Assembly: GCA_023135255.1 (NCBI GenBank)
Contig: JAGLTN010000051.1
Coordinates: 1 to 10,598 of the forward strand
DNA from: Planctomycetota bacterium
GTDB taxonomy: Bacteria > Planctomycetota > Phycisphaerae > Sedimentisphaerales > Anaerobacaceae
Reading direction: 5' to 3'
DNA: 10,598 nucleotides
The notes under the pieces are model-generated. The model saw nothing but the letters and a program-made list of their open reading frames with translations. It had not been told where the DNA came from and made no database searches. Within the stretch, counting starts at the first letter, position 1, and every line of letters begins with the position of its first letter. Position numbers and translations under genes: made by a program. Of the stretch, positions 3,436-10,598 are shown piece after piece.

Positions 3436-3485
3436 GGACAGGTATAGATGTGGTTATAATATTCAGATGCACGTTTGGAATTGGT

Positions 3486-4172
3486 ATGAAAAAACATTTT
3501 ATCGCGTTACTTGTCTCGCAGACAGTTTTACTATCGGTATTCAGTTTGCCCGTTTTTGCTCACATAGATATTTCCGTCCCCGATGTCAATTCCCTCATCG
3601 CCTCGGACCCGAATGCAATACTAATTGACGTCCGCGATCTTTCCGAATATTGCGGCCCAACAGGGCACGTCGCAGGCGCACTTCTTTACCCCTGGAACTC
3701 TCAAATTATTCAGAATTCATTCCACGATCTTCTAAAATCAGATACGATCATTATAATCTGTCGCAGCGGCGGCCGAAGCAACGATGCTGCAAACTTACTC
3801 GATTCTCAAGGATATCTTCATGTTTACGATATGATCAACGGCATGAACGACTGGCACGGCGTCTACAGTTACCAAACCGTAGATTGCATCGATACTGACA
3901 GCGATGGGCTCAATGACGACCTCGACAATTGCCCAACTATCTACAACCCTCGCCAGACAGACTCTGATGGCGATGGCATAGGAAATGTATGCGACGATCT
4001 CTGCCCATACCTCGACGATCTTAGCTTTGTCAATTTCGCCGACTACGCGATCCTCGCCCAAAATTGGCAACAACAGGCAAGCAACATAATAGGCGACCTC
4101 AACCACGACGACATCGTCGACATAAACGATTTGCCGATTTTTTCTTACTACTGGCTGACAGATTGCAACTAA
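3486..4172 (+). CDS. Secreted rhodanese-TSP3-dockerin-like protein
   Basis: Exported protein of 228 aa with three parts. Residues 1-25 are a signal peptide (MKKHFIALL to PVFA). Residues ~33-130 are a single rhodanese domain: LIDVRDLSEY, GHVAGAL, and the active-site loop CRSGGRS with Cys92 as the persulfide-carrying residue. Residues ~136-170 are a thrombospondin type-3 calcium repeat (DTDSDGLNDDLDNCP, DSDGDGIGNVCD). Residues ~178-226 resemble a dockerin. The second loop, GDLNHDDIVDINDL, is complete. The first, FVNFADYAILAQNW, lacks the first half of its calcium loop. The known rhodanese reaction is sulfane-sulfur transfer; an extracytoplasmic version may handle thiosulfate, polysulfide or cyanide, but the substrate cannot be read from sequence. 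An in-frame upstream ATG at 3450 is rejected because the signal peptide begins at 3486. Its stop codon directly abuts that of the converging DUF1080 gene. Confidence 0.85.
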   Translation: MKKHFIALLVSQTVLLSVFSLPVFAHIDISVPDVNSLIASDPNAILIDVRDLSEYCGPTGHVAGALLYPWNSQIIQNSFHDLLKSDTIIIICRSGGRSNDAANLLDSQGYLHVYDMINGMNDWHGVYSYQTVDCIDTDSDGLNDDLDNCPTIYNPRQTDSDGDGIGNVCDDLCPYLDDLSFVNFADYAILAQNWQQQASNIIGDLNHDDIVDINDLPIFSYYWLTDCN

Positions 4173-5170: not shown

Positions 5171-6451
5171 ATGACATTTTGTTCAGTGGTCAGGCAAACA
5201 TTAGTGATAGCAATAGCAGTTGTGACCGGTTTTGTGCAATCGGGTATTGCAAAAGATTGGCCCCAGTGGCATGGGCCGTTGCGAGACAATATTTCGAATG
5301 AAACAGGACTTCTAAAGCAATGGCCTGAAAATGGCCCAGTGATGCTCTGGTCCATCGAAGGCATGGGATCAGGCTACTCAACCGTTTCTATTGCTGATAG
5401 TGCAATTTACATTACCGGCATGATCGACAAGCAGGGCATGCTCAGCAAGATCGACCTTGACGGCAAACTGATCTGGCAAAAACCATATGCTGGTGAATGG
5501 CGAGGGTCCTATCCAGGTTCGAGAAGTACGCCAACAATTAATGATAGCTGCGCTTACATAATGAGCGGAGTCGGCGATGTTGTATGCATCGACATTGAAA
5601 CAGGAGCAAAAAAATGGTCTGTAAACACTTTAGAAAAATACGGCGGAAAAACCACTGCATGGGGCATTGCAGACTCACTTCTGATTGACGGCGAAAAAGT
5701 TTTTTGCATGGCTGGTGGACCAAACGCATCTATCGTTGCACTGAACAAAAAGACAGGCCAGCTGATCTGGGCAACAAAGCAGCTTAGTGAAAAAGTCGCA
5801 TTCTGCTCTCCGATAATGGTAGAACACCAAGGCAAAAAACAGCTTATATCCGTCCTGGTGGAATCTGTGGTTGGCATTGACACTGAAAACGGTCAGTTGC
5901 TCTGGAAGTTGGCTATGGAATCTTTCAAAAATCCGGAAGGTGAAAAACGTGGTGCCGGTTCGACAGCAAACACACCGATATATAAAGACGGTTGTTTCTT
6001 TGTTACCACCGGCTATAATCACGGAGGTGCAAAGATCAGGATTTCACAAGACAGCAAAACAGCAACCGTCGTCTGGAAAAATTTTGAGCTCGACAATCAC
6101 CATGGAGGCGTTGTTCTTGTTGACGGAATGCTTTACGGATCAGGCTGGACTGACAATCAGCGTGGAGATTGGCTGTGTGTGGATTTCGATTCCGGAAAAA
6201 CTATGTACACTCACAGTTGGGACAACAGCAAAGGTTCGGTATTCTACGCTGAAGATATGCTTTACTGCTATGCGGAGAAGACCGGCAAAGTCGCTCTCGT
6301 TAAAGCCGACCCCAATCAATTCAGCATTGTAAGTTCATTCGAGGTCACTCTTGGTAAGGAAGAACACTGGACACACCCGGTTATTTTCGACGGCAGGCTT
6401 TACATCCGCCACGGCGATGTCTTGATGGCCTATGATATAAAGAAGGAGTGA
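5171..6451 (+). CDS. Periplasmic PQQ-like beta-propeller protein
   Basis: Exported beta-propeller of 426 aa. The ATG is preceded by GGAG six bases upstream. Residues 1-27 are a signal peptide ending GIA. The mature protein opens with DWPQWHGPLRDNISNETGLL, the typical entry of the PQQ-binding-like, outer-membrane-assembly-type propellers that are expanded in planctomycetes. Blade signatures recur: SKIDLDGKLIWQK, VCIDIETGAKKWSV, VALNKKTGQLIWAT, VGIDTENGQLLWKL and CVDFDSGKTMYTHS. These are the usual V.xxD.xTG.xxW pattern. The family includes quinoprotein dehydrogenases and non-catalytic scaffolds. I see no dehydrogenase-specific disulfide or haem motif, so a binding or scaffold role is as likely as catalysis. 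It is divergent from the DUF1080 gene and apparently monocistronic. No clear promoter or terminator was found. Confidence 0.85.
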   Translation: MTFCSVVRQTLVIAIAVVTGFVQSGIAKDWPQWHGPLRDNISNETGLLKQWPENGPVMLWSIEGMGSGYSTVSIADSAIYITGMIDKQGMLSKIDLDGKLIWQKPYAGEWRGSYPGSRSTPTINDSCAYIMSGVGDVVCIDIETGAKKWSVNTLEKYGGKTTAWGIADSLLIDGEKVFCMAGGPNASIVALNKKTGQLIWATKQLSEKVAFCSPIMVEHQGKKQLISVLVESVVGIDTENGQLLWKLAMESFKNPEGEKRGAGSTANTPIYKDGCFFVTTGYNHGGAKIRISQDSKTATVVWKNFELDNHHGGVVLVDGMLYGSGWTDNQRGDWLCVDFDSGKTMYTHSWDNSKGSVFYAEDMLYCYAEKTGKVALVKADPNQFSIVSSFEVTLGKEEHWTHPVIFDGRLYIRHGDVLMAYDIKKE

Positions 6452-6510
6452 TAACTTCAGTTAAACAAAAAAGAGCCCGCCTCATAAACTGACACCGCCC
6501 CAAAATAAAT

Positions 6511-6552
6511 TACGCCCGGCAGAACTCGAACCTGCGACCTTCGGTTTAGGAA
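6511..6552 (-). other. 3' half of tRNA-Arg(CCU): likely attachment-site scar
   Basis: Read on the minus strand, this segment has in order a 7-base anticodon loop TTCCTAA with anticodon CCU (6548-6550), the 3' anticodon-stem strand ACCGA, a 5-base variable loop AGGTC, and a T arm GCAGG-TTCGAGT-TCTGC. The T arm pairs, with one G-T pair. The 3' acceptor strand CGGGCGT and a discriminator A follow. Beyond the anticodon loop the expected 5' stem strand (TCGGT) is replaced by ACGTC, and no D arm or 5' acceptor strand follows. The gene is thus cut at the anticodon loop, the usual crossover point for tyrosine recombinases that integrate into tRNA genes. CCA is not encoded. No intact partner tRNA lies in the window. 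Confidence 0.75.
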
Positions 6553-6806
6553 GACGTAACTCGGAAAATATAACCTCTTCAATATCAAATAGTTATAAAC
6601 AAGCACGAAAATCGTTTAGTACAAATTTTAGTAAAAACATTACTGAAATTCAGCAGGATTTAGCAAAAATTAACATCGAATGATCAATAAATTGGTGAAA
6701 TGTTGCATGTGTAGTGTCAGGAAATGAGTATATCGGGCATCGGAGTACAGGTGAGGTGCTAAACGGATGGCGGACAAAATAATTAAAACAACAGAAATAT
6801 AAACTC
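6553..6806. other. AT-rich gene-free tract beside the tRNA half
   Basis: About 250 bases without a believable reading frame. It holds two direct copies of TTTAGTA (6615-6621 and 6627-6633), an inverted near-copy TACTGAAA (6641-6648), and the second copy of the 26-bp repeat. If the tRNA half is an attachment-site remnant, this tract lies on the former element side and the short repeats might be arm-type recombinase sites. Confidence 0.35.
6752..6776 (+). repeat. Imperfect dispersed repeat, copy 2
   Basis: This 25-bp segment matches 81-106 in the same orientation at 22 of 26 aligned positions and ends in the same 11 bases, GATGGCGGACA. It lies in non-coding sequence about 125 bases before the response-regulator start. 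Confidence 0.5.
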
Positions 6807-6835
6807 TTGACTCTTTGAGTTTTCAATATTATTGT
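6807..6835 (+). promoter_or_regulatory. Candidate promoter of the response regulator-kinase operon
   Basis: TTGACT at 6807-6812 and TATTGT at 6830-6835 are separated by 17 bp. The start codon follows about 67 bases after the -10 box, leaving room for the inverted repeat at 6848-6867. Confidence 0.5.
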
Positions 6836-6847
6836 CTTTAATAATCA

Positions 6848-6867
6848 AGCGTATGCTTTTTTACGCT
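6848..6867 (+). promoter_or_regulatory. Inverted repeat in the response-regulator leader
   Basis: AGCGTA (6848-6853) and TACGCT (6862-6867) are perfect 6-bp inverted arms around an 8-base T-rich loop. The repeat lies just downstream of the predicted transcription start and could be an operator or an RNA hairpin. The short arms make chance possible. Confidence 0.3.
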
Positions 6868-6902
6868 ATGGGCGAAATCTGAAGTAATATTTGAGGAAAA
6901 AA

Positions 6903-7298
6903 ATGGAACAGGCAAAAATCTTAATCATAGACGACGATCCTGACATTACAGAAGCAACGAAAATTGTGCTGGAAAACCAGGGCTACAGCGTCTACACAGC
7001 CAAAGACAGTGAAGCTGGGTTGGAGCAGTTAAAAACAATCGGGCCGGACCTGATAATCCTGGATGTGATGATGAACACTCTTAGAGAAGGTTTTGTGCTC
7101 TCGAGAGAATTAAAGGATAATCCCAAATACAAACACATCCCAATTCTGATGGTGACGGCGGCGAAGGAAAAAACCGGTTTTGATTTTAAGCCAGCTGCTG
7201 GTGATGAGGCATGGTTACCTGTGGAAGATTTTTTAGATAAACCAGTGAAGCCAGAGCTGCTTTTGGCTAAGGTCAAAGAGCTATTGCACGAGTCATAA
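6903..7298 (+). CDS. Single-domain response regulator (CheY-like receiver)
   Basis: Cytoplasmic phospho-acceptor protein of 131 aa with only a receiver domain. Visible residues are the acidic pocket D10-D11-D12, the phosphorylation site D54 in LIILDVMM, the switch Thr85 in MVTAA, and Lys113 in FLDKPVKP. There is no DNA-binding or enzymatic output domain, so it must act through a protein partner or pass phosphate on. The T85-K113 segment contains TGFDFKPAAGDEAWLPVEDF, which is about six residues longer than the corresponding part of CheY. The ATG at 6903 is chosen because GAGG lies six bases upstream; the in-frame TTG at 6891 overlaps that ribosome binding site. The kinase gene starts four bases after its stop, so the two are almost certainly cotranscribed and form a cognate pair. 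Confidence 0.9.
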   Translation: MEQAKILIIDDDPDITEATKIVLENQGYSVYTAKDSEAGLEQLKTIGPDLIILDVMMNTLREGFVLSRELKDNPKYKHIPILMVTAAKEKTGFDFKPAAGDEAWLPVEDFLDKPVKPELLLAKVKELLHES

Positions 7299-7302
7299 AA
7301 AG

Positions 7303-8634
7303 ATGAAAACTCTTCTTCGAGACACAAATCTTATTAAAAGAGCGTTCTGGCTCATCAGATTAAGATGGGCTGCTACGGCAGTGCTGGGGATGGGTGTTTT
7401 ATTTTCTATCAAGATTCTGCATGTGTCCCTGCCTGTAGTCGAACTCAGTATTATTGCCGGTGCGATGGTTTTATATAATGTTGCCTTGTTTGTTTTGCTG
7501 CGGCACATCACTTCAGATAATAAAAATCCTGCACATGAAACAATTAGCCGAATAATCACTTTTCAAATATCTGCCGATATTATTGCATTAACCAGCATAC
7601 TCCGCTACTCAGGTGGAATCGAAAATCCTGTCTTTCTTTATTTCGTATTTCATATGATTATTGCAAGCATTTTACTATCAAGGCGCCAAAGTTATTTCCA
7701 GGCGACACTTGCAGTATTATTTTTTGGTGCTCTGGTGATTCTTGAATACTTTGAGTATATTCCACACTATGGAGCGGCAAGGCTTGCCGATTATAACCTG
7801 TACCGTAATAGTCTGTTTGTTTGCACGACCTTTCTGGTTTTTTCGACTACCTTGTACCTGGTAGTATATATAATGACCTCGATATCACATTTGTTGAAAC
7901 AGCAGCAGGAATGGTACGAGATTGCCAACATTCAGCTTCGAGAAAAAGACCATTTGAAAAATGATTATGTTCTTCGGCTTACACACGATATCAGGGGGCA
8001 TCTCTCTGCTATCCAGAGCTGTCTTAACATTGTCAATGACAAGATAGTGGGGCCGTTGAATGAAAAGCAGATGGACTTGATTGAAAGGTCATATCGCAGG
8101 GCAGGTAAATGCATGGCTTTTATAACCGCTTTGCTGAAACTGACAAGAATGAAAATGACAGGTACACTTGAAATGGGGTATTTTCCGCTCAAAAATTCTA
8201 TTTTCAATGCCCTTGCTGCCGTTCAGAACAGAGCTGCGAGAAAAGAAATTAAAATTGGCTATAATATAGAAGACGGAATTGACGAGATCTACGGAGAGCC
8301 GGTTTTGATCGAAGAAACCATCGCGAATCTGTTGTTTAATGCTGCCAGATATACCCCACAGAACGGCACAATTAAAATAAATGTAAAAGACCAGCAGGAT
8401 TCTATTCTGTTCGAAGTTAGCGATACAGGTATCGGAATACCTCAGGATGATATTGAAAAAATATTCGATGAATTTTACAGATCGGACAATGCCAGAGAAG
8501 TTGAAAGAGATGGAACAGGTCTGGGGCTTTCAATTGCCAAACAGGTTATTGAGAGGCATCATGGCCGAATATGGGTAAAGAATAACCCGGAGGCTGGATG
8601 CACATTCAGCTTTACTTTACCAAAAAAGCCTTAA
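7303..8634 (+). CDS. Membrane sensor histidine kinase with RegB-like GGxxNP motif
   Basis: Two-component kinase of 443 aa, the presumed phosphodonor of the receiver encoded just upstream. Residues ~14-193 hold about six hydrophobic segments with short loops and no recognisable periplasmic sensor domain. Between membrane segments lies SGGIENPVF (103-111). This resembles the GGxxNPF motif that binds quinone in the redox kinase RegB/PrrB. A linker (~195-220) leads to the H box RLTHDIRGHLSAI with His228. The ATPase domain has the N box around Asn346 (ETIANLLFNAARYTP), G1 DTGIGIP (374-380), an F box (IFDEFYRSD) and G2 GTGLGLS (404-410). All catalytic motifs are intact. The regulator gene, Rex and an iron-sulfur oxidoreductase nearby support a redox role, but quinone sensing is inference. 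The start ATG lies four bases after the upstream stop. Confidence 0.92.
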   Translation: MKTLLRDTNLIKRAFWLIRLRWAATAVLGMGVLFSIKILHVSLPVVELSIIAGAMVLYNVALFVLLRHITSDNKNPAHETISRIITFQISADIIALTSILRYSGGIENPVFLYFVFHMIIASILLSRRQSYFQATLAVLFFGALVILEYFEYIPHYGAARLADYNLYRNSLFVCTTFLVFSTTLYLVVYIMTSISHLLKQQQEWYEIANIQLREKDHLKNDYVLRLTHDIRGHLSAIQSCLNIVNDKIVGPLNEKQMDLIERSYRRAGKCMAFITALLKLTRMKMTGTLEMGYFPLKNSIFNALAAVQNRAARKEIKIGYNIEDGIDEIYGEPVLIEETIANLLFNAARYTPQNGTIKINVKDQQDSILFEVSDTGIGIPQDDIEKIFDEFYRSDNAREVERDGTGLGLSIAKQVIERHHGRIWVKNNPEAGCTFSFTLPKKP

Positions 8635-8896
8635 AAATTGTGTGACATTTTACCCAAATACGACTGCCGCTTGTCATCCCTCAAAGATTGTCCCCACCTA
8701 AGCCGGGATTGCCGAATCCTGTATAAAATAGCTATCCGCCAAAGAGGGATTCCATTTTTTTGCTTCAGTCAGTTACTGTATACGGTTAAAATTCACCTTT
8801 TCAGATGGGGTGACAAAAAACATCTTCTTTTTTTTCAGCAAATAATACGCAAAATGACACCCCCCAAATTTTTTTTTATTCAGGGATGTTTTTTTC
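8635..8896. other. Gene-free region between kinase gene and rex promoter
   Basis: No convincing gene was found here. It contains a hairpin at 8704-8721 (CGGGATT, loop GCCG, AATCCTG; seven pairs with one G-T) without a following T-run. Inverted arms ATCCCTC (8676-8682) and GAGGGAT (8744-8750) lie 61 bases apart. Several long T-runs occur (8755-8760, 8827-8836, 8870-8878, 8889-8895). It may hold the 3' end of the kinase transcript. A long open frame here lacks a ribosome binding site and family resemblance. Confidence 0.4.
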
Positions 8897-8925
8897 TTGA
8901 CAATTCCAGAACAACAGTGTATTGC
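8897..8925 (+). promoter_or_regulatory. Candidate rex promoter
   Basis: A perfect TTGACA at 8897-8902 and TATTGC at 8920-8925 are separated by 17 bp, placing transcription start near 8932. The Rex-box-like site begins about 10 bases further on, a position suited to autorepression. Confidence 0.45.
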
Positions 8926-8940
8926 TGATTTAGCTTTAAT

Positions 8941-8958
8941 CTGTGAACGTAAACACAA
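8941..8958. promoter_or_regulatory. Putative Rex operator
   Basis: CTGTGAACGTAAACACAA matches the Rex box TTGTGA-N6-TCACAA at 10 of 12 defined positions, with the right spacing. It lies between the rex promoter and the rex start codon. A weaker second site at 8969-8986 begins with a perfect TTGTGA half (TTGTGAACACAGGCGTAA, 9 of 12). Autoregulation by Rex is common in the family; occupancy here is inferred. Confidence 0.6.
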
Positions 8959-9004
8959 GTTGAAATAGTTGTGAACACAGGCGTAAATTAATTTAAGGTG
9001 ATTT

Positions 9005-9628
9005 ATGCGTTATCGCAAGATTCCAGATGAGGCGGTTTGGCGTTTGCCAATGTATCTCAGGGGCTTGTTGCTCTCGTTAGAGAAGTCCCAGGAGACCATT
9101 TCCAGCCAGGAATTGGCTGATTTTTTCGGTGTTCATCCCTGGCAAATAAGAAAGGATTTTTCATACTTTGGGGCTTTCGGAACACCAGGAGTCGGCTACA
9201 AAGTTAAAAAACTTTCAACGCAAATCAAAAAAATTCTCAATCTCCATGTAAGCCATAAAGCTGTTTTAGTAGGTGCCGGTAACCTTGGTGCAGTCATTCT
9301 TGCTTATCCCGGTTTTAAGATTTATGGTTTTGAAATTACCGCTGTTTTCGACAATAACCCCCAAAAGATTGGACAAAAGATTGAAAATATTAGTATTAAA
9401 GATGTCTCAAAACTGTCCCTGATAAAAAGGCAAAAAATTGACCTTGGTATTATTGCCGTTCCACGTAAGGCGGCGCAAGAGGTAGCAGATAGGCTTGTTG
9501 AAATGGGCATAAAGGGCATTTTGAATTTTTCACCCTGTCGTATCAACGTGCCCAAAAAAGTAAAGGTTATTACTATTGATATCGCAATGGACCTTGCTCG
9601 CTTGCCGTATTATATCCCGTCGAGCTAG
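9005..9628 (+). CDS. rex: Redox-sensing transcriptional repressor Rex
   Basis: Cytoplasmic NADH/NAD+ sensor of 207 aa, the usual family length. Residues ~1-80 form the winged helix: SSQELADFFGVHPWQIRKDFSYFGAFG and then PGVGY, the Rex signature. Residues ~85-200 form a Rossmann fold: VLVGAGNLG carries GxGxxG at 90-95, and Asp116 in AVFDNNP is placed to bind the adenosine ribose. The family releases DNA when NADH rises, derepressing fermentative, hydrogenase and respiratory genes. Start choice: AAGGTG lies four bases before the ATG. A Rex-box-like operator precedes it, suggesting autoregulation. A gene for an iron-sulfur electron-transfer protein follows after 34 bases and is probably in the same operon, so Rex likely controls it. 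Confidence 0.96.
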   Translation: MRYRKIPDEAVWRLPMYLRGLLLSLEKSQETISSQELADFFGVHPWQIRKDFSYFGAFGTPGVGYKVKKLSTQIKKILNLHVSHKAVLVGAGNLGAVILAYPGFKIYGFEITAVFDNNPQKIGQKIENISIKDVSKLSLIKRQKIDLGIIAVPRKAAQEVADRLVEMGIKGILNFSPCRINVPKKVKVITIDIAMDLARLPYYIPSS

Positions 9629-9662: not shown

Positions 9663-10598
9663 ATGGAAACCGTTTTTATAAGTAAATTACAAACGTTTTT
9701 GGATGTTGTTGCCGAAAAGCTCCCGCTTTATGTTCCCTCAAAAAACGAAGAGCACTATACGTATAATATATACGACCTGTCCGGGAAGATTTCTGTGGAA
9801 TTTAACGCCATACGTCCCTGTACGCCGATAAAGGAATTTCTTTTTCCCATGCGGGAATTGGCCGCAACCTATCCAAAAGAGCTTGAATCTGACGGTATAA
9901 AGCCGTTCGCAGTATTTGGGCTAAAGGAATGTGATTTGCGTTCGATAGAAATTCTGGATAAAGTTTTCGCAGAGGAAGACTTCAAAGACCAGTTTTATCT
10001 CAAGCGACGTGAAAGCATGTTCATTATCTCCACCGATTGTTCTGAATCTGGGGAAACTTGTTTTTGCAGCATTTTCGGGGGACAAGGTTTTGCTGATAAG
10101 GGTTTCGATCTGAATGTTTCAAAAATAAGGGACGGCTTTATCATCGAATCCGGTTCTCAAAAGGGCAAGGATTTTTTGACAAATCATTCACAAATTTTCG
10201 GTGAGGTTCCCGATACTTTATTGTCTGAGCGTGATACGAACAGGGCTGCGGTAAAAACTCAGCTCGAGGAGAATAACCGCGATCTTAAATTCGAATCCAC
10301 CCTTAAGCAAATTGTCGAAGCCGGCCAGGAAAGCGACGTTTTTGACAACGAAGCGAGAAATTGTATCGAATGTCAGGCCTGCACGAGGATTTGCCCGACC
10401 TGCCATTGTTTCTACCTTTATGACACAGTAAAAGAGGATTACTTCGCTAAAATGAAGATGTGGGACAGTTGCATGAGGTTAAGTTACGCGACAGTTGCAG
10501 GCGGGGAAAATCCGAATAAAATCCTGGGCAACAGAATCAAACATCGTCTTTTGCACAAATTTGTACATTTTTATGACCGCTACGGGCTTGATATGTGT
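9663..10598 (+). CDS. 4Fe-4S HydB/AsrA-type electron-transfer subunit (partial)
   Basis: The 5' part of a gene, 312 codons, open to the end of the window. The ATG has GGTGAG five bases upstream. Segments typical of the HydB (sulfhydrogenase beta) / AsrA (anaerobic sulfite reductase A) family are visible: RPCTPIKEFLFP (51-62), FGLKECDLRSIEILDKVF (85-102), and TDCSESGETCFCSIFGG (124-140). The ferredoxin domain starts with C234-x2-C237-x2-C240-x3-C244-x2-C247-x-C249. Cys312, the last residue in view, is probably the first ligand of a second 4Fe-4S cluster. Such proteins pass electrons between an NAD(P)H-flavin subunit and a hydrogenase, a sulfite reductase or Hdr-type heterodisulfide reductase modules. 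Which of these cannot be decided without the downstream genes. No signal peptide, so cytoplasmic. Probably cotranscribed with rex. Confidence 0.85.
   Translation, partial: METVFISKLQTFLDVVAEKLPLYVPSKNEEHYTYNIYDLSGKISVEFNAIRPCTPIKEFLFPMRELAATYPKELESDGIKPFAVFGLKECDLRSIEILDKVFAEEDFKDQFYLKRRESMFIISTDCSESGETCFCSIFGGQGFADKGFDLNVSKIRDGFIIESGSQKGKDFLTNHSQIFGEVPDTLLSERDTNRAAVKTQLEENNRDLKFESTLKQIVEAGQESDVFDNEARNCIECQACTRICPTCHCFYLYDTVKEDYFAKMKMWDSCMRLSYATVAGGENPNKILGNRIKHRLLHKFVHFYDRYGLDMC

Follow-up and report, generated by a model that had tools for sequence, protein, structure and literature searches.

The segment at positions 6511-6552 of the window, by which we mean the whole 10,598-bp stretch analysed here (contig C457, complete, of a metagenome-assembled genome of 2.85 Mb in 644 contigs, 83% complete), is supported as an integration scar at a tRNA-Arg(CCU) gene, as the first-pass annotation had proposed, by the tRNA half that it carries, by sibling scars in the same Planctomycetota family and by an element-like right flank. 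It quite probably represents the attR of an element with a decayed end, from a subfamily in which attP lies inside the integrase gene. As read from sequence comparison, the integrase gene of relatives spans attP, and integration splits its body from a C-terminal tail. The scar itself is ordinary, and leads to integrases that appear to hold their docking site, and probably control sites too, in their own coding sequence. The features of the window that bear on this are:

5171..6451, plus strand: PQQ/BamB-like gene (Pfam), the chromosomal flank of the scar on the 3' side of the tRNA half
6511..6552, minus strand: 3' half of tRNA-Arg(CCU), nt 33-74 of 74, 41/42 identity, probably the displaced half at the distal (attR) junction
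6553..6683, plus strand: element end with the putative remnant of a severed integrase C-terminal tail, antisense to the tRNA half, truncated compared with relatives
6615..6638, plus strand: tandem 12-bp direct repeat TTTAGTACAAAT/TTTAGTAAAAAC, in frame as FSTN-FSKN, putative integrase arm-type sites
6684..6902, no strand: AT-rich intergenic tract upstream of the response regulator, with no recognised element feature
6903-7298, plus strand: response regulator (RR; Pfam)
7303-8634, plus strand: histidine kinase (HK; Pfam)
9005-9628, plus strand: Rex (Pfam)
9663..10598, plus strand: 4Fe-4S dicluster protein (PF17179), running off the contig

Read on the minus strand, positions 6552-6511 align with nt 33-74 of the 74-nt tRNA-Arg(CCU) of a relative with one mismatch (BLAST, E 4e-13 among the loci searched), and the local alignment scores 80 against a maximum of 27 among 100 shuffles. 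The half keeps the anticodon loop, the 3' anticodon stem, the variable loop, the T arm, the 3' acceptor strand and the discriminator, and the mismatch, a C to T change in the 3' T-stem, leaves a G-U pair. Homology ends at the anticodon loop: nt 32, with which the 5' anticodon stem ends, is already mismatched, so that both the identification as a 3' half of tRNA-Arg(CCU) and the proposed loss of pairing at the 5' side of the anticodon loop are borne out. ARAGORN calls no tRNA in the window and an Rfam search finds no tRNA match in it at E≤10, which is to be expected when only half a tRNA molecule is present; a silent covariance-model scan had been named as grounds for giving up the identification, but such a scan is ill-suited to half a tRNA, and the direct alignment settles the matter. 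A 30-nt pattern of the half, with up to 3 mismatches, occurs in 30 of 60 genomes (the window's own counted), compared with 0 of 60 for the reversed control pattern. The window thus carries one of the features by which Islander recognises a tRNA genomic island, a displaced tRNA fragment that includes a gene end.

Among 89 genomes of this one family in our collection, we found at least 12 scars of the same kind, in the window and in G011, G032, G015, G110, G111, G028, G099, G112, G084, G107 and G003, a lower bound because many pattern matches were never fetched. Homology begins at nt 33 in the window, later than in the 11 others (nt 23-31). The count excludes a partial match in G076, which belongs to the tRNA-Arg(UCU) type; locus L105 has, at 16660-16995, a second scar that by eye is of this type as well, with a complete integrase tail. 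The G032 contig is identical over its length to the Sedimentisphaerales MAG Zod_Metabat.1083, and 500-nt pieces taken from G110 and G015 were found in B3_Pla and bin_34. In three genomes, an intact tRNA-Arg(CCU) and the scar share a contig, 27.6 kb (G110), 8.6 kb (G003) and 5.0 kb (G107) apart. In all three, tRNA and scar are on the same strand and the element is at the scar's 5' side, corresponding to the right in the window, although the scars of G003 and G107 are degenerate (80% and 84% identity) and orientation was read there without integrase confirmation. Together with the element-like right flank, these pairs support a position of the element to the right of the fragment. The 27.6-kb stretch in G110 (L237 7816 to L238 15454) is an Islander-type island with an integrase and a type I restriction-modification HsdM gene.

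To the right of the scar, after 350 bp, starts a conserved operon (6903..9628), which the first-pass annotation considered, with the AT-rich tract, a possible part of the element. The element could then be still in place, with the two-component/Rex/iron-sulfur/hydrogenase operon as its cargo and an intact tRNA-Arg(CCU) past the right end of the contig, an arrangement that we consider unlikely. It agrees with the orientation, which places the operon on the element side, and with G022, where a Rex-to-hydrogenase operon (without RR and HK) begins 63 bp after an intact tRNA-Arg(CCU) in the orientation that cargo predicts. A tRNA-Arg(CCU) or a piece of it is found near the Rex/hydrogenase operon in 5 of 22 fetched stretches (the window, L052, L105, L106 and L111), or, leaving aside the window and L052, which were picked for their tRNA, in 3 of 20 Rex loci (G015, G035 and G017). 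On the other hand, the HK-Rex-FeS order recurs in nine other loci whose fetched stretches, short in some cases, contain no piece of tRNA-Arg(CCU) (G079, G076, G104, G102, G060, G084, G023, G085 and C84 of G017), with RR in all but G023 and a short RR match in G104. Moreover, the GC content of the operon (0.402) is close to that of a genome sample (0.409; ∼50 kb, overlaps included), and the tail at the element end of the window is truncated. In G022, the search for a second scar between Rex and MlaD or behind the hydrogenase operon gave local alignments no better than the best shuffle, with one at the 95% shuffle level, and no hydrogenase gene was found at E≤1e-10 in 25 loci with scars or intact tRNAs, which mostly hold partial elements. 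Of the original proposal, the scar and its right side therefore stand, but the operon as demonstrated cargo was rejected and remains unproven, because it is conserved elsewhere without scars and has a genome-like GC content. In the relatives L052, L119 and L191, the 4Fe-4S protein follows Rex in a hydrogenase/Mrp-like operon (hydrogenase and Mrp named by eye). As a separate observation, the short RR match of this operon in G104 is directly preceded by a tyrosine integrase (L190 3475-5072), 54.5% identical to one found next to tRNA-Arg(CCU) in G028, in the place that the scar takes in the window.

The anatomy of such elements is best followed in relatives. G032, G110 and G015 have integrases of a single subfamily (51-54% identical), each of which runs antisense into the tRNA. 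Body and tail are in the same frame in these three genomes and also in G111, but there with two stops. The tail at the scar ends in a motif like DLAxVVxxWPELPxxIxxAIxAIV in G110 and G015, while the G032 contig ends within the motif. A repeat is common to both element ends, at the scar and on the integrase side, in G032 (25 nt), G015 (11 nt) and G110 (8 nt); in G111, whose integrase is degenerate, it does not recur at the integrase end. The PF00589 catalytic domain is whole in the bodies encoded in L045, L105 and L237. Of the 32 loci in a named-genome scan, G032, G110 and G015 among them, 24 have a minus-strand tRNA after the integrase and 8 have none there; the integrase reading frame enters the tRNA in 22 of the 24 and stops short in 2. 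Elements of this kind are found at Planctomycetota tRNA genes for Arg, Ser, Thr, Lys and Cys, and one integrase has 2,382 database homologues at E≤0.001, a figure that measures similarity and is not a count of attP-spanning genes.

A profile HMM of the tail, run over 43,485 ORFs, found tails outside its training set in L105/L265 (one place), L289, L268 and L279, and among 11 loci from viral contigs it found the tail of the one complete frame-matched element, L293. Seven loci carry integrase and tail on a single contig. In three of these, L268 (6.8 kb, at tRNA-Arg(CCU)), L293 (9.0 kb) and L289 (7.4 kb), integrase and tail have a frame-matched repeat in common; L279 (9.1 kb) is frame-matched, with a shared repeat of 18 nt only, and L272 has a weak frame match and a shared repeat of 16 nt. 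The remaining two do not fit, as the repeat lies outside the integrase ORF in L291 and no repeat is shared in L265. In L293 and L289, ARAGORN places the tRNA on the integrase's own strand, so that these elements duplicate the 5' half and read it in sense. Scars of 5' halves were seen at 256-300 of L293 and 1241-1284 of L289, both frame-matched 5'-half elements, as well as at 3375-3411 of L106 (G035), where a degenerate 5' half of tRNA-Arg(CCU) lies near Rex.

The uninterrupted form is represented by two database proteins, P0105 and P0115, in which catalytic domain, repeat, tRNA-antisense peptide, repeat and tail follow one another; these are just 2 among the 120 homologues listed, while a tRNA-antisense-like peptide, as judged by a hand-made motif list, is found in 93 of the 120. 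Two further protein searches for tailed integrases matched only their own queries. Tandem tetrapeptides occur in 72 of 107 linkers, compared with 2.8 expected, 13 of the 120 proteins having been dropped for want of a landmark or for being too short. The AlphaFold model of P0115 (mean pLDDT 75, pTM 0.50) has an ordered core, a segment predicted as disordered at residues 394-519 (pLDDT <50) and a two-helix tail at 528-555, whose helices (528-536 and 542-555) lie in blocks with pLDDT 68-81.

In the window, an open frame on the plus strand (6465-6680, stop at 6681-6683) runs antisense through the tRNA 3' half into the element end, as in the subfamily. From the tRNA half it reads RPAELEPATFGLG-RRNSENITSSISNSYKQARKSFSTNFSKNITEIQQDLAKINIE-stop, with 43 residues after RPAELEPATFGLG that end in DLAKINIE. 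The DLA start of the tail is thus present, while the conserved W-x-x-LP part is missing, and the complete tail typical of the subfamily (like DLAxxVxxWxxLPxxIxxAI) breaks off ∼120 bp from the junction. The element end looks decayed, therefore, its tail being truncated after DLAK, and the window would hold, at best, a decayed member of the subfamily. The tail HMM matches the window with E 2.9 over 43,485 ORFs, which is not significant by itself; the case for the subfamily is made by place, frame, repeat and flank combined.

The 12-bp repeat of the window lies in frame, and its spacing and offset (-84 to -80 from the anchor) agree with those in the scars of G032, G110, G111 and G015 (8/10 matches, P 0.004). 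Its sequence varies between elements and its position is constant; the exact spaced repeat of the window has a single occurrence in its genome. By their placement, the two copies at 6615-6638 are predicted arm-type sites, to which the integrase would bind. In addition, the ∼85 bp to the right of the scar resemble the ends of known tRNA-Arg(CCU) elements. We compared 90 nt on the element side, ungapped, with ten other scars (without G107), nine of them usable (without G084), a test that, like that of the repeat, was devised after inspecting the sequences. The window flank matches that of G032 at 42/90 positions (26.1 expected; 0/2,000 shuffles), G110 at 40/90 (P 0.0005), G015 at 35/90 (P 0.009) and G111 at 31/90 (P 0.09, with P 0.0015 for the nearest 30 nt), and shows no significant likeness over this length to those of G112, G099, G011, G028 and G003. 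GC content is 0.32 across 6553-6902, and promoter-like sites in the AT-rich tract (6684-6902) show no excess over shuffles.

That the scar was left by an element of another integrase class, its flank resembling those of G032, G110 and G015 by chance, appears improbable. Different integrase types do occur at this tRNA or its scars (G028, G112), the 12-bp repeat is absent from 7 of the 12 scars and present in only 5 (the window, G032, G110, G111 and G015), and the HMM score of the window's tail is weak. Chance would, however, have to account for an in-register flank identity to three members of the subfamily and for a repeat at the offset that is theirs. Accordingly little weight falls on such an origin, and assignment of the window's element to the subfamily with attP inside the integrase gene is the reading that we follow, as a prediction from these sequence features.

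The other end of this element was sought in the window's own genome. The proposed check, for an intact minus-strand tRNA-Arg(CCU) and a tyrosine recombinase gene to the right of the fragment, found neither before the contig ends at 10,598, and no integrase anywhere on it. Nor was an intact tRNA-Arg(CCU) found in the assembly, an absence that says little because only 13 tRNAs were recovered from it. PF00589 is matched nine times on other contigs, none of them a contig with the window repeat at ≤1 mismatch. Searches for the other end by the 5' tRNA half found nothing in this genome, those by the repeat pattern at ≤1 mismatch gave 5 matches in all compared with 11 for the reversed control, and those by the hydrogenase large subunit, run without a positive control, gave no match. 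An empty-site test by synteny of the PQQ gene was dropped, as the family of this gene has many paralogues per genome. Two other contigs of the genome deserve mention in their own right: C334 (L065 1-24), which by eye appears to begin within the 3' end of a tRNA and has an integrase next to it, and C130 (L064), where a tRNA-Ser(TGA) lies beside an integrase 42-45% identical to the subfamily.

The lack of an intact tRNA-Arg(CCU) in the assembly would also be expected if a native gene had lost its 5' half by chance deletion, with no element involved, and Rex is indeed found on the 5' side of tRNA-Arg(CCU) in G015 and of a 5' half in G035. We regard such a deletion as very improbable, given a break at the 5' edge of the anticodon loop, near those of 11 other scars, an element-like flank, and so few tRNAs in the assembly. 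Least likely of all is an assembly chimera at a short repeat, which a fragmented assembly (644 contigs) with the junction on one contig and without read data might suggest, but which is at odds with the fit of the sequence right of the junction to element-end anatomy at the expected offset.

Under the preferred reading, 6511-6552 as the attR of a tRNA-Arg(CCU) element with its attP inside the integrase gene, a tyrosine integrase would have crossed over in or near the anticodon loop of tRNA-Arg(CCU) in this uncultured planctomycete. Element DNA would have rebuilt the tRNA at the proximal end, outside the assembly, and the chromosomal 3' half would have been displaced to 6511-6552. The attP would lie in the part of the integrase gene that encodes the disordered linker between the catalytic domain and the two-helix C-terminal tail, and the linker DNA may serve three roles, as coding sequence, as tRNA core and as tandem arm-type sites flanking that core. 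With attP inside the gene, integration cuts it; the body would stay at the intact tRNA and read on into it, usually antisense, and the tail would be stranded beside the displaced half, in the window as a truncated remnant at an end that looks decayed. Loss of the tail would presumably alter the activity of the integrase. More tentatively, a large family of planctomycete integrases may use its own gene as attP, integration trading the two-helix tail for a tRNA-read peptide in a way that could record the integrated state and set direction, with the tail favouring integration and its absence holding or excising the element. This would account for the tRNA-antisense peptides at the end of many planctomycete integrases in databases, and with both forms of a bacterial family on record in sequence databases, the role of the tail can be tested directly.

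By analogy, the integrase of Myxococcus phage Mx8 is the closest precedent. According to the available part of PMC6070905, its attP lies inside int and integration makes a new 3' end, with activity modified and not abolished. An attP within int and an exchange of the 3' end by integration are likewise seen in planctomycete relatives, as distinct from the window. In contrast to Mx8, compared by description only, the planctomycete elements sit at tRNA genes and have tandem tetrapeptide repeats of the linker as putative arm sites; and while the effect on activity is reported for Mx8 (PMC6070905, in the part available), for the planctomycete integrases it is a prediction. Among the 12 phage matches listed of 271, none is from a Myxococcus phage. 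Archaeal SSV-type integrases are similar in that integration into the target splits the gene, but there it separates Int(N) from a catalytic Int(C) and inactivates the gene (PMC8371274, in part), whereas in planctomycete relatives PF00589 stays whole and only the C-terminal tail is lost. The accessible part of this 2021 review restricts recombinases that disrupt their own gene to archaea, in contrast to the bacterial phage case of Mx8, with its exchanged 3' end, and that of Islander (PMC4383910) names both Mx8 and SSV integrases as spanning attP. The same part of Islander counts 3,760 islands with 3' fragments and 159 with 5' fragments, and describes a 3' tDNA fragment, an anticodon-centred crossover and an integrase beside the intact tRNA, a likeness limited in the window to the fragment and the adjoining element-like end. 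In the open-access literature, no paper was found with both Sedimentisphaerales and integrase.

Some further observations concern the target tRNA and the remainder of the window. In G110 (L237 6390-9288) and G032 (L045 1319-4108), tRNA-Arg(CCU) has a tyrosine integrase gene on either side, the two converging on it. One of them, on the tRNA strand, ends immediately upstream of the tRNA, and the other overlaps the tRNA antisense. Each kind is 51-54% identical between the two genomes, and the arrangement suggests that elements attack this tRNA from both sides. Elsewhere in the window, 246-2315 encodes a 689-aa protein in which an Alpha-L-fucosidase domain and a sulfatase-modifying-factor-like domain are fused, and 3450-4172 a protein with a Rhodanese domain and, after it, a thrombospondin type 3 repeat (Pfam), which from the appearance of its N-terminus is possibly secreted.
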